Origin: a virus
Direction: 5' to 3' (one strand)
DNA: 25,768 nt
IMG/VR virus record: IMGVR_UViG_3300020451_000185
Span: 1 to 25,768 of that record
Position 1 is the stretch's first letter; the number at the start of each line of letters is the position of its first letter. Below are positions 5,492-25,768 of the stretch, in pieces. Below the pieces are notes generated by a model that saw only the letters and a program-made list of their open reading frames with translations, did no database searches and was not told where the DNA came from. Both the position numbers and the translations under genes were made by a program.

Positions 5492-6889
5492 TTAATAAGG
5501 TTGTGTATACATTGGTAAAACTTGATACTCTGCATAGTCGAGAGTACTAGAATCTATTGTGCTTTTTGCGGTCATAAAAGCTTGTGGCTTTACAGAAAAT
5601 TCTGCAATATCTAATGTTCCAGAACTATCGGAGTCTGGAAGAATAGAGGCAGGCGGTGTTGGTGCAGACGTAACTGAGGTTACTGTTCTTATTGCTTCCC
5701 AACCGTCATCGACGATATCTTGAATACTTAAGGTTAAATCGGGTGCTCCAGTGTTTCCTACCAAAGAATCTGGAATTGTTACAGTCTCATTTATCGCATA
5801 ATCTTGACCTAAATTATCATAATCAAAGGATCCAGACCCGTAAATAGTAGAAGTGTCAATACTTCCATCTGTTTTTACTGTTAAATAATAAGTTTGACCA
5901 TAACCATTTCCACTGGTCATAGCTGGAGTAATATATACAGTATAAGTATTACCGGCTACAGCAGCTCTAGTAGAATTAGCTGTAGTTAAGTTACCCGAAT
6001 TATACCAGAAAATCTTATTCTGAACATTATGTTTGATCTTAACATGATCTCCTACAACATAACCTCCTCCACCGTCTTTAATTAAAACACCTCCGTCATA
6101 AGTAGGAGGGCTGGTAGTATTATCTTGAAGTGCACCACTAGAACCATTGTGTGTTACTTCTATTTTTAAACCAGTTCCATTTCCTGTATAGTTATTACTA
6201 ATTGGATAAGCGTGATTACCTATAATATAAGTATCTAAATCTCTTCCGGCAACAACTTTATATGCAATACCGTTAAGATGTAGTAACTGTCCGGCAGCAT
6301 ATCCATAAGGATGATAACCACTTAAACCTGTAACAGCACCATAGTTTGACGTTGGAGCTGTATAAGTATAGCTATTATCATTACTAGCAAAAGGTTTACA
6401 AGTATACTCAGCGTATTGTAAAGGTAGTGTGCTTATGGTAGAGTTTGCTGGAATATGAACCAAAGGTTTACATTGAAACTCTATAAAATCATCTAAAGTT
6501 ATATTAGACGAATTGTATTTTGGTAAAACATTTGTAGGGGTACTTCCTCCTCCCCCACCTGATGGTGGCTGATAAACAAAGCTAGATGGTAGTGCCCAGA
6601 CAGGTTTGACCCCAAAGTAGGCATAATCTAAAGTGTTAGTGTTAAGCCCACTTTTAGCTGCAACATCTACAATAGGTAAACAACCAAATTCAGCATAATC
6701 TAAACTGGCTAGATCTAAATAATCTGGAAGTGAAACCCCAGAGGGAGGAGCTGCTGTAGCCCCTTTCCAAGTTCCAGATACATTTGCGGAGAATACTGTA
6801 CCAGTTTTCCAAGTTCCATTTACGTTTACGTAGTAATCAGTAGCTTGTTTCCAGACACCATTTACATTAACGTAAACGGTATTACTCAC
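5492..6889 (-). CDS. Repeat-containing putative tail fibre / adhesin protein
   Basis: A 465-residue Gly/Ser/Thr/Tyr-rich protein of virion-adhesin character. The N-terminus has three tandem copies of a roughly 14-residue unit (YVNVNGVWKQAT, YVNVNGTWKTGT, FSANVSGTWKGAT). Six degenerate copies of a 'TLDYAEFxxKP' motif follow, in three pairs at about 63/87, 131/155 and 426/450, separated by a Pro/Gly5 linker (110-116) and a beta-rich central domain (about 170-410) with GGVLIKDGGGGYVVGDHVKI. Translation starts with GTG at 6889-6887, inside the end of the preceding gene (8-base overlap); the first residues MSNTVYVNVN line up with the repeat, which supports this start. No enzymatic motif seen. Assignment to the tail is by composition and position in the fibre block. 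Confidence 0.7.
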   Translation of the reverse strand: MSNTVYVNVNGVWKQATDYYVNVNGTWKTGTVFSANVSGTWKGATAAPPSGVSLPDYLDLASLDYAEFGCLPIVDVAAKSGLNTNTLDYAYFGVKPVWALPSSFVYQPPSGGGGGSTPTNVLPKYNSSNITLDDFIEFQCKPLVHIPANSTISTLPLQYAEYTCKPFASNDNSYTYTAPTSNYGAVTGLSGYHPYGYAAGQLLHLNGIAYKVVAGRDLDTYIIGNHAYPISNNYTGNGTGLKIEVTHNGSSGALQDNTTSPPTYDGGVLIKDGGGGYVVGDHVKIKHNVQNKIFWYNSGNLTTANSTRAAVAGNTYTVYITPAMTSGNGYGQTYYLTVKTDGSIDTSTIYGSGSFDYDNLGQDYAINETVTIPDSLVGNTGAPDLTLSIQDIVDDGWEAIRTVTSVTSAPTPPASILPDSDSSGTLDIAEFSVKPQAFMTAKSTIDSSTLDYAEYQVLPMYTQPY

Positions 6890-23673: not shown

Positions 23674-24819
23674 TTAAGTTAAAGCTGAAGGCTTAGTTGC
23701 TGTACCAGCGAATAATTCGATAGCAGCAGCAGGGTTAAGTGCGTCAGCTCCCATTGCTAGGCGACCTAGGATTACGTCACCTTGGTAAACCACGGATATG
23801 TCTCCGCTTGTTACCTGTACTTGAGGTCCGATTGCTTCAACAACACCAGCGGCTTCCTTCTGGAAGATTAATCCGCAGCTGTTTGCAAACTCAGTACTGT
23901 TACCGTATGTGTTAACAGTCTTAGTTGTTGATGTACCAGCTCTCTCGTCTTCCATTGCAACTTCTGTGAAGTCACCTTTGTTTCCGGGATCTGTTACTCC
24001 GGGGTTTGTTGCAGAACCTGTACCATACTTAGTACCAAAGTTACTGAAGAATGGAATGTTCATTGACTTGTAGATGGTGATACCAGCTATTTCAATGATG
24101 CCATTACCAGACTGTAATGCTGTACCTTGTACGTCTCTGTTGATAAGACCGTTAGAACCAACACTTTGTATTAATTCGTAGTACTGTCTTGGGTTCAACA
24201 CAGCTACTCTACCTTCAGTAGAAACTCCCTTCTCATCTAGTGCAGCAGCTGCATCGTAGAAAGCGTTTACAAGAGCTGTAGAGCTGTAAGCATCAGATGC
24301 GTTTGTAGTTGTACCTACACGGATCTGTGTTCCACCGGGCTCTTGGAAGTTAGTCTTAGTGATAGGACTAGCTTGTCTAGCTGCCTTGGTGATTGATCTG
24401 AAGATCTTTCTGTCATACTTCTCTGCTAATGCGTAGCCGATTTTCTTAGAGATCTCTCCTCTTAGATCGTAGTGTGCTAGTGTCTCATCTAGCTCATAAA
24501 CGAACGCAGAACTAATTAATAGGTCATCGCAAGTTATGGTTTTTTCAGCTACTGGAGGTGCTCCATCAGAGTTACCTAGTATGCTGTTGCCGGGTGTATG
24601 ATACTCGGCTGTTGTTCTACCTGTAAAGATGAACTGAAGACTCTTACCGTTTGTAAGTGTTCTCTTCATTACAAGGTCTCTAGCGATTGTGTTACGCTGG
24701 AAGCCTTTAAACATCTCTCCACTGAACAACTTTAAATATAATGCTCTGGCGTTTCCAGACGCATTATCCTGACCCGGACGTGTGAGTGCGGTAGTCAGTG
24801 TACTATTTTGTTGTGCCAT
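23674..24819 (-). CDS. Major capsid protein (T7 gp10-like)
   Basis: A 381-residue HK97-fold capsid protein of the T7 type (T7 gp10A: 345). Landmarks are an N-arm TRPGQDNASGNARALYLKLF (G-Q-x-x and 'aLfLKvFsGEV' type), followed by SGEMFKGFQRNTI; then the E-loop/strand KSLQFIFTGRTTAEYHTPGN; DDLLISSAFVYELDETLAHY ('I.vD..l.s...v.diDe.m.hyd'); and RVAVLNPRQYYELIQ in the P-domain. The C-terminus AAIELFAGTATKPSALT looks complete. I see no evident slippery site or gp10B-type extension before the terminator. The ATG (24819-24817) is preceded by an AT-rich leader without Shine-Dalgarno. The gene is flanked by a structured leader and a strong terminator, in keeping with very high expression. Confidence 0.93.
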   Translation of the reverse strand: MAQQNSTLTTALTRPGQDNASGNARALYLKLFSGEMFKGFQRNTIARDLVMKRTLTNGKSLQFIFTGRTTAEYHTPGNSILGNSDGAPPVAEKTITCDDLLISSAFVYELDETLAHYDLRGEISKKIGYALAEKYDRKIFRSITKAARQASPITKTNFQEPGGTQIRVGTTTNASDAYSSTALVNAFYDAAAALDEKGVSTEGRVAVLNPRQYYELIQSVGSNGLINRDVQGTALQSGNGIIEIAGITIYKSMNIPFFSNFGTKYGTGSATNPGVTDPGNKGDFTEVAMEDERAGTSTTKTVNTYGNSTEFANSCGLIFQKEAAGVVEAIGPQVQVTSGDISVVYQGDVILGRLAMGADALNPAAAIELFAGTATKPSALT

Positions 24820-24975
24820 TATTATGGATTATTGTGTTTATATTGCTTAGTACTAATTTTTTTCTCGAGATTTTGTAGGTCTATCCCTACCGTCTAGACG
24901 GCATAAGGTGTCCAGCGTACTGGGCTTGTGCCAAATGCAGGGGAGTCCGACTCTGAGGTGCTCCCCGTGCTGTTA
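24820..24975 (-). promoter_or_regulatory. Capsid gene leader with several inverted repeats
   Basis: This 156-base stretch has no gene I can confirm. It holds, from the promoter-distal (left) side: an AT-rich 5' untranslated part; the palindrome TCTCGAGA (24863-24870); GTAGG/CCTAC around a 6-base loop (24875-24890); a perfect 12-base palindrome CCGTCTAGACGG (24890-24901); CCAG-CGTA-CTGG (24912-24923); and GGGGAG...CTCCCC with a 15-base loop (24940-24966). A minus-strand ATTTGGCACAAG (24936-24925) matches 9 of the first 12 bases of the promoter I recall for the Syn5 cyanophage RNA polymerase (ATTGGGCACCCGTAA). The capsid promoter and an RNA stabilising structure are expected here; which element does what is inference. 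Confidence 0.45.
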
Positions 24976-25029
24976 TTACTTCACAAATTTTGTGTAAGCA
25001 ATGCCACGATATACGTAAGTTACTTGCAT
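24976..25029 (-). CDS. 17-residue peptide downstream of the riboswitch
   Basis: A micro-gene with ATG at 25029-25027 and TAA at 24978-24976. GGAG lies 6 bases ahead of the ATG, one of the best ribosome sites in the window. The product is MQVTYVYRGIAYTKFVK. The 'TY..YRG..Y' core resembles the small YRG-type proteins of cyanobacteria and their phages (DUF4278-like 'LTYRGVxY'). An in-frame ATG at 25041 would give 21 residues but would place the GGAG inside the gene. Peptides of 17 or more residues following the Downstream-peptide RNA are exactly the context that gave that riboswitch class its name. A second TAA follows the first after no gap. A +1 frame extends open to 24894 (see findings). Confidence 0.65.
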   Translation of the reverse strand: MQVTYVYRGIAYTKFVK

Positions 25030-25039
25030 TGTAATCTCC

Positions 25040-25098
25040 ATATACCTAAGCCCCGTTCCATGCCTAGGTTTCATGCGTCCCATGTGGGATGAACGGAC
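25040..25098 (-). ncRNA. Glutamine-II (Downstream-peptide) riboswitch candidate
   Basis: On the minus strand an outer stem CCGTTC (25096-25091) pairs with GAACGG (25058-25053). Inside are a hairpin TCCC-ACAT-GGGA (25089-25078), the linker CGCA, and a hairpin CATG/CATG (25075-25072 with 25062-25059) whose loop carries ACCTA. That loop can pair with TAGGT (25048-25044) in the 3' tail, a 5-base pseudoknot. The linear pattern CGTTCA-T-CCC...GGGACGCA...GGAACGGGG..TAGGTA is what I recall for the Downstream-peptide motif, shown to bind glutamine. The Shine-Dalgarno of the 17-codon gene lies 5 bases past the pseudoknot strand, so control of translation is the natural reading. The 5' half (25064 upward) is also the coding sequence for the last residues of the oxygenase. 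Confidence 0.8.
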
Positions 25099-25615
25099 GT
25101 GGCTGTTCTGTTGCCCATGTATTAATTGTATATCTATAACCTTCCGGCTTGCTTACCTCATGGGGATGTGTAAAATACACAGGAAAAGCAATAGCCTGTC
25201 CACGTAACAGACGTGTTTTATATTTCTGTTGTGGAAAGTTAAATACACCTTCTTCAAAATCACTATTTAATGCAGCTATAACACTTAAATTACGAGGATG
25301 ATGATTACTACCACCAAAGACATCGTCCCAGTGGTATAGTGTAGGTCCATGAATCTTACGTATCTGATAACCTGTACAACCGTTAGATTTAAAAGTTGGT
25401 ACCATCTTTAAATACTCCATCATTACCTTAGTAAATGCTTCGTGTATATCGTGAACCAACCTATGATCTATTGTGTTTTCATAGGTTCCAAAACCGCTAA
25501 CATTGTTAGAGTTTAATTCATTAAGATTATATGTCTCAGCGTGCTCGTAATAATCAATACAAGCATCACAAAGGTAATCAGGTATTGCGTCGTCTAATTT
25601 AAGTATAGTAGTCAT
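25064..25615 (-). CDS. Prolyl 4-hydroxylase-like 2OG/Fe(II) oxygenase
   Basis: A 183-residue enzyme of the 2-oxoglutarate/Fe(II) superfamily. The double-stranded beta-helix landmarks are present: GYQIRKIHGPTLYHWDDVFG with the H95-x-D97 metal pair; LSVIAALNSDFEEGVFNFPQ, the 'ls.i..LN.dfeGGe..F' strand; then AIAFPVYFTHPHEVSKPEGY with RYTINTW, giving the distal metal histidine (H152, in HEV) and R161 for 2OG binding. Such proteins are common in cyanophages with unknown substrates (protein prolyl residues, nucleotides or tRNA have been suggested for relatives). It follows psbA by 18 bases with no terminator between, so the two are likely co-transcribed. Its last codons double as the 5' part of the riboswitch. 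No Shine-Dalgarno is visible. Confidence 0.85.
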   Translation of the reverse strand: MTTILKLDDAIPDYLCDACIDYYEHAETYNLNELNSNNVSGFGTYENTIDHRLVHDIHEAFTKVMMEYLKMVPTFKSNGCTGYQIRKIHGPTLYHWDDVFGGSNHHPRNLSVIAALNSDFEEGVFNFPQQKYKTRLLRGQAIAFPVYFTHPHEVSKPEGYRYTINTWATEQPRPFIPHGTHET

Positions 25616-25633: not shown

Positions 25634-25768
25634 TTACCCTATAGCTGGTGCTGTAAGGGCTACGTTTGTGGACTCAGCTGATGCTAAGTCAAGTGGAAAG
25701 TTGTGTGCATTTCTTTCGTGCATAACTTCAAAACCAAGGTTCTGTCTGTTTACAACGTCAGCCCATGT
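25634..25768 (-). CDS. psbA: Photosystem II D1 protein, C-terminal fragment
   Basis: The last 44 codons and stop of a viral psbA, cut by the window edge. The translation [20 protein letters not shown] is followed by [20 protein letters not shown] and PAIG. It contains the D1 residues that bind the oxygen-evolving Mn cluster and its processing site: H332, E333, H337, D342 and A344 in the usual numbering ([13 protein letters not shown]). After Ala344 comes a 15-residue extension, so CtpA-type cleavage by the host is still expected. Cyanophages use psbA to keep photosynthesis running while host D1 is lost during infection. Its place just ahead of the capsid gene and within the late transcription direction indicates expression together with virion genes. 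Confidence 0.97.

Follow-up and report, generated by a model that had tools for sequence, protein, structure and literature searches.

A probable glutamine-ON riboswitch ahead of a YRG miniprotein gene in the psbA–capsid interval of T7-like cyanophages

The minus strand of a 25.8-kb virus record (IMGVR_UViG_3300020451_000185, analysed over its full length of 25,768 nt and here called the window) was found to carry a Glutamine-II riboswitch aptamer followed by a very short open reading frame, both in the interval between psbA and the capsid gene of a T7-like cyanophage. We consider it probable, at roughly 80%, that they form a translational riboswitch switched on by glutamine and driving a miniprotein with a Tyr-Arg-Gly (YRG) motif. 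The mini-ORF, overlooked by the initial annotation of this stretch, is the likely gene under riboswitch control. Read along the minus strand, the order is psbA, a 2OG oxygenase gene, the aptamer, a Shine-Dalgarno site, the mini-ORF, a hairpin, a capsid-leader element and the capsid gene, as follows.

25634–25768, minus: 3' end of psbA (photosystem II D1)
25064–25615, minus: 2OG-Fe(II) oxygenase gene (PF13640), an insertion between psbA and the aptamer, its last 11 residues read in the aptamer
25045–25098, minus: Glutamine-II riboswitch aptamer (RF01704)
25091–25095, minus: pseudoknot 5' strand CGUUC, with ligand-contacting C1 and G2 (mapped to the numbering of PMC6698751)
25078–25089, minus: aptamer P1 hairpin UCCC-ACAU-GGGA, from the sequence and the cmscan alignment
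25062–25069, minus: P2 5' strand ACCUAGGC, covarying with the P2 3' strand and containing the oxygenase stop codon
25054–25058, minus: pseudoknot 3' strand GAACG, with ligand-contacting C39 and G40 (same mapping)
25044–25051, minus: P2 3' strand GCUUAGGU, common to P2 and the predicted OFF hairpin
25003–25051, minus: predicted ligand-free (OFF) hairpin, whose arms covary in relatives
25036–25039, minus: Shine-Dalgarno GGAG, 6 nt before the mini-ORF start codon
24976–25029, minus: mini-ORF (downstream peptide), translated as MQVTYVYRGIAYTKFVK and a stop, with YRG conservation and codon constraint
24940–24966, minus: hairpin GGGGAG...CUCCCC, on the 5' side of the capsid leader; relatives have a T-loop-like hairpin or a real tRNA instead
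24874–24934, minus: capsid-leader RNA element, conserved and covarying
23674–24819, minus: major capsid protein gene (gp10A-like, PF21703, 257.9 bits)

The aptamer belongs to a known riboswitch class. RF01704 (Glutamine-II, or Downstream-peptide) was the sole Rfam family to reach its gathering score in a cmscan search of the whole window, the match extending from 25098 to 25045 on the minus strand and over the full model (1–60) with 48.5 bits against a gathering score of 33 (E 4e-9). The glnA-type family RF01739 gave 17.5 bits, far under its cut-off of 35. The initial annotation had proposed a minus-strand Downstream-peptide (glutamine-II) aptamer here, to be checked by a covariance search with these two families and by compensatory changes in related phages, and its proposal was borne out on both counts. 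Across 132 phage loci P2 was paired in 94% of cells compared with 23–48% in slid registers, and seven of its eight pairs displayed changes on both sides. The search pattern itself fixes the pseudoknot strands, which are therefore invariant in the search set, and it is P2 that supplies the covariation evidence. The minimum free energy of the aptamer alone was not unusually stable (z -0.5), as expected when the pseudoknot is left out of the scoring; the case for the aptamer is made by the covariance model together with covariation, and not by the minimum free energy.

Helix names follow Huang et al. 2019 (PMC6698751). P1 pairs UCCC (25089–25086) with GGGA (25081–25078), and its stem is kept in relatives while the loops vary. 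P2 consists of 8 bp, 25069–25062 with 25051–25044. The bases that contact the ligand in the crystal structure, C1, G2, G18, C39 and G40, are all present in the window aptamer once it is mapped to that structure, and so are the near-invariant C19, A33, G41 and G42 (PMC6698751), and sensing of glutamine by the phage RNA is predicted. Two helices of the first description were real under other names: its outer stem CCGTTC/GAACGG is the PK of the literature (CGUUC/GAACG), and its loop-tail pseudoknot ACCTA/TAGGT is P2, with eight pairs and not five. Its CATG/CATG hairpin lies outside the known fold and was rejected, as the crystal pairs C19 of CATG with G41; CAGG or CATA stands at that place in four relatives (L010, L016, L014 and L022).

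The mini-ORF comprises 18 codons, with a 17-residue product, and starts 14 nt after P2. A GGAG or GAGG was present in 75 of the 96 distinct relatives with a recognisable site. A YRG mini-ORF of 13–51 residues follows the aptamer in all 114 readable viral loci among the 119 matches listed, the five others being cut by contig ends, and in 12 of 12 pattern-positive loci of phage records. Tyr-Arg-Gly and a later Tyr are invariant over 95 distinct sequences, and over the 12 codons around YRG the nonsynonymous/synonymous ratio is 0.13 in frame, compared with 1.3 and 3.0 out of frame, which shows coding constraint on the mini-ORF. In a profile-profile comparison with host DUF4278 proteins, the phage miniproteins aligned to the final YRG repeat (93% probability, E 3e-7), and one phage member of 38 residues passes the Pfam DUF4278 threshold (PF14105, 26.8 against 25.3), the host proteins scoring 39–43. 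The window miniprotein gave no match to PF14105, the query of 17–21 aa being too short to score alone, and no solved structure resembling it was found (best E 0.75). Judged by these profiles, the miniprotein appears to be a one-repeat relative of the riboswitch-controlled DUF4278 protein of the host.

A translational ON switch is predicted because the P2 3' strand and the Shine-Dalgarno site can pair with the YRG codons in a covarying manner. In the OFF hairpin, a computed fold, GCUUAGGU, the spacer and the Shine-Dalgarno site pair with ACUUACGUAUAUCGUGGC, namely the Thr-Tyr-Val-Tyr-Arg-Gly codons of the mini-ORF, and the start codon is left in the loop. In the window the fold has -14.7 kcal/mol (z -2.9), and 3 of 200 shuffles were equally stable; computed accessibility of the Shine-Dalgarno site increased from 0.15 with the aptamer strands free to 0.63 with these strands sequestered. 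The same operation raised accessibility at 43 of 96 loci and lowered it at 10. The spacer covaries with the codon wobble bases (GGUAU-AUAUC, GGUAC-GUAUC, GGUAG-CUAUC). The first free position is paired in 47 of 49 distinct loci, a value attained by 0 of 1000 shuffles, and three of the pairs beyond the anchor lie above every one of the 1000 shuffles; the compared sequences are related and not independent, so these shuffle counts are not probabilities. Register 0 reached 79%, against 33–43% for the others. The anchor is missing in 36 of 127 loci, and the gain over synonymous recodings is modest (mean z -0.94), 17 of 113 loci having at most 5 recodings in 100 as stable.

Under glutamine scarcity, the ribosome site would be closed by pairing of the P2 3' strand, the spacer and the Shine-Dalgarno site with the Tyr-Arg-Gly codons. 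Bound glutamine would let the pseudoknot lock P2, the OFF hairpin would be blocked and the 17-residue YRG miniprotein would be translated, probably to act on the glutamine/nitrogen control of the host in the infected cell. This model agrees with what has been described for Prochlorococcus, where the type 2 riboswitch in front of DUF4278 is an ON switch (Klahn 2018, as relayed in PMC6316151 and PMC6698751) and where the same freed ribosome site, opened by the ligand, has been proposed according to these two papers.

The exact pattern of the aptamer core was found in at least 119 IMG/VR contigs and at least 120 genome contigs, the latter, apart from a few odd bins, nearly all from Prochlorococcus or other picocyanobacteria. 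Most of the 119 IMG/VR contigs listed have the aptamer and the YRG mini-ORF flanked by psbA on one side and the capsid gene on the other; the capsid gene was located behind them in 99 contigs and psbA ahead of them in 83, many of the others being cut by contig ends. RF01704 exceeded its gathering score in 15 of the 16 phage records fetched, including P-SSP7, P-GSP1, P-SSP2, NATL2A-133, NATL1A-7, S-TIP37, S-RIP1, S-RIP2 and S-TIP28, the last having no psbA at this place. No riboswitch is annotated in the GenBank feature tables of the 16 records, and the mini-ORF is listed in only some of them, as a hypothetical protein. When loci missed by the riboswitch pattern were chosen by their capsid-leader element, 9 of 20 still matched the Rfam model. 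S-SBP1 (L131, 2500–2640) has lost the 5' part of the aptamer, next to the end of the upstream ORF, and has kept the P2 region and mini-ORF; by its sequence it appears to be a natural loss-of-switch variant. A phage-type aptamer with its mini-ORF also occurs in a MAG labelled Porticoccaceae (L168, gammaproteobacterial), probably a misbinned cyanophage contig.

The nearest known system is the Glutamine-II (RF01704) riboswitch ahead of the Prochlorococcus DUF4278 gene (PMM1846 type), which shares with the phage copy the aptamer fold, the ligand-contacting bases, a small YRG-containing ORF downstream and, likely, a translational ON mechanism. It differs in that the phage copy occupies a fixed psbA–capsid site and its target has one YRG repeat in 13–51 aa, whereas the host ORF behind the aptamer usually has 55–65 residues and three YRG/YRR repeats (among the matches listed). 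Glutamine-I (glnA, RF01739) of cyanobacteria and of Melnitz-like phages and pelagiphages likewise senses glutamine and is carried by marine phages, but it has another fold, and the Melnitz copy is tied to ssrA and to no YRG peptide (PMC9004378). In Synechocystis, gifB under a type 1 riboswitch encodes the glutamine synthetase inactivating factor IF17, again a glutamine-gated small protein and one whose N-terminal part is DUF4278 (PMC6316151), although this host protein is larger than the phage miniprotein. The DUF4278 part of IF17 is described as dispensable for glutamine synthetase inactivation, so IF17 does not imply that the phage peptide inhibits this enzyme; the DUF4278 proteins of picocyanobacteria are suspected, but not proven, to take part in glutamine synthetase control (PMC6316151). 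The manA and wcaG motifs of cyanophages are also structured cis-regulatory RNAs, some near photosynthesis genes, but belong to T4-like phages and have different folds and unproven ligands (PMC2864571).

Three other readings of the locus were weighed against a switch that drives the miniprotein. The mini-ORF might act only by pairing within the switch, or as a leader peptide, with no functional protein and with YRG conserved at the RNA level, and its YRG codons do form the anti-Shine-Dalgarno arm. Yet wobble positions vary while the residues stay constant, as the low in-frame ratio and the values above 1 elsewhere reflect, longer versions retain YRG behind an added N-terminal extension that is charged, and the host protein has three YRG-type motifs, most of them far from a Shine-Dalgarno site; we regard this reading as quite unlikely. 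Gating of virion production by glutamine, through control of the capsid gene in cis, would suit the 99 contigs in which that gene follows and the many phages in which it is the next annotated gene. The initial annotation was right in placing a Glutamine-II aptamer in the interval before the capsid gene, but a mini-ORF with its own start always intervenes and is a nearer target than the capsid gene. The mini-ORF stop and the capsid start are 149–1309 nt apart (1.0–1.3 kb in several phages), with as many as several cargo genes between them, and the capsid gene is preceded by a conserved leader element of its own. Given this distance, the intervening genes and that leader, the capsid gene is unlikely to be controlled directly, and virion production gated in this way seems very unlikely; polar effects are possible in the few phages whose mini-ORF is directly abutted by a further ORF.

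The third reading makes the overlap of oxygenase gene and aptamer a dual-coding device that would couple translation of the oxygenase with the opposition of 2-oxoglutarate and glutamine. The physical part of this earlier claim was supported: the aptamer lies in the psbA–capsid interval and overlaps the 2OG oxygenase gene (PF13640, 2OG-FeII_Oxy_3, 30.5 bits against a cut-off of 27), its bases encode the oxygenase end RPFIPHGTHET, and the stop codon TAG (25066–25064) falls within the aptamer's P2 5' strand, not in a hairpin loop. The idea of a meaningful device fared worse. L001 is an empty site, in which the psbA stop is followed by AACAGCCACGTC and then by the aptamer without an oxygenase; it is 96% identical to the window at the psbA end and identical in the P2 strands and mini-ORF. 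The window carries about 528 bp more than L001 between copies of AACA, a 4-nt micro-homology at which the oxygenase gene is inserted. Homologues from T4-like cyanophages match oxygenase residues 4–169 and end there or within a few codons (those of S-T4 and ACG-2014f stop at about residue 169), and residues 173–183 are therefore the aptamer read in frame. Among the 119 contigs listed an upstream ORF ends inside the aptamer in 9, several of these ORFs being unrelated, and in the others the stop is usually 7–16 nt before the aptamer or farther; the overlapped residues are the conserved aptamer in whichever frame arrives (VRSS.. or RPFIPHGTHET). The overlap is, by this comparison, apparently incidental. 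2OG oxygenases do recur in the slot, as the proposed tie to 2-oxoglutarate would have it, PF13759 being over its cut-off in L009, L031, L070 and L097 and under it in L004, but a D2-like ORF and further unrelated ORFs occur there as well, for which reason the slot upstream of the aptamer looks like a cargo hot-spot. Adjacency is all that speaks for a functional tie between oxygenase and riboswitch, and the dual-coding device is extremely unlikely. A tblastn search of phage records matched the oxygenase in 48 Synechococcus phage records, and a peptide-pattern search of IMG/VR for its relatives found none. In Synechococcus phage ACG-2014f (L258) the gene that matches residues 4–169 is annotated as ferrochelatase, which is doubtful.

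Downstream of the mini-ORF, the capsid-leader element of about 60 nt (UUGGC..GCC..UACG..GGAUACC..GCCGUCUAGACGGUGGGAUAGACCAC) was found in the window, in L121 and L123 and in more than 130 other loci. It contains invariant stretches and two covarying helices, with 98.8% of cells paired compared with 86% in shuffles and 17–59% in slid registers, and it matched no Rfam family. The capsid gene begins about 47–108 nt downstream of it in 135 of 135 loci with room, and the element could be one of translation or processing, or a ribozyme. The hairpin on its 5' side has the form GGGAGG-T-loop-like-CCUCCC in many phages (L121, L125 and others) and a CACCUCAGAGUCGGA loop in others, including the window; NATL1A-7 has an annotated tRNA-Gly at this site. 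It looks as if tRNAs or tRNA-like pieces have been interchanged here. ARAGORN found no tRNA for the hairpin in 14 sources. A group I intron (RF00028, 83 bits) lies at 6132–6345 of L002, in the region of the capsid gene and some 400 nt 3' of the capsid-leader element. Translational coupling of mini-ORF and capsid gene, considered for the abutting starts of L004 and L048, was discarded because capsid homology begins farther on, 295–456 nt after the mini-ORF.

As far as the open literature searched extends, the new features are the fixed place of the riboswitch in T7-like cyanophages, the one-repeat phage miniprotein, the OFF hairpin formed with YRG codons and the capsid-leader element; that literature, taken apart from the original papers on the type 2 riboswitch and the motif, gave no earlier report of them. 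The public description of the RNA motif reportedly mentions one phage. We put forward, tentatively and as somewhat less than an even chance, that T7-like cyanophages as a group possess a minimal mimic, gated by glutamine, of a nitrogen regulator of the host, that the 17-residue "downstream peptide" of marine metagenomes which named the motif is largely a phage gene, and that during infection it would retune the nitrogen assimilation of the host, but only while glutamine is plentiful. Phage mini-ORFs may in this way explain the peptides from which the motif took its name, and the covarying capsid leader is a second candidate regulatory RNA. P-SSP7 and its relatives serve as models for phages that infect the most abundant photosynthetic cells, and a nutrient sensor at a fixed site, unannotated in the GenBank records examined, together with a tiny gene would provide them with a testable link between host nitrogen and infection.
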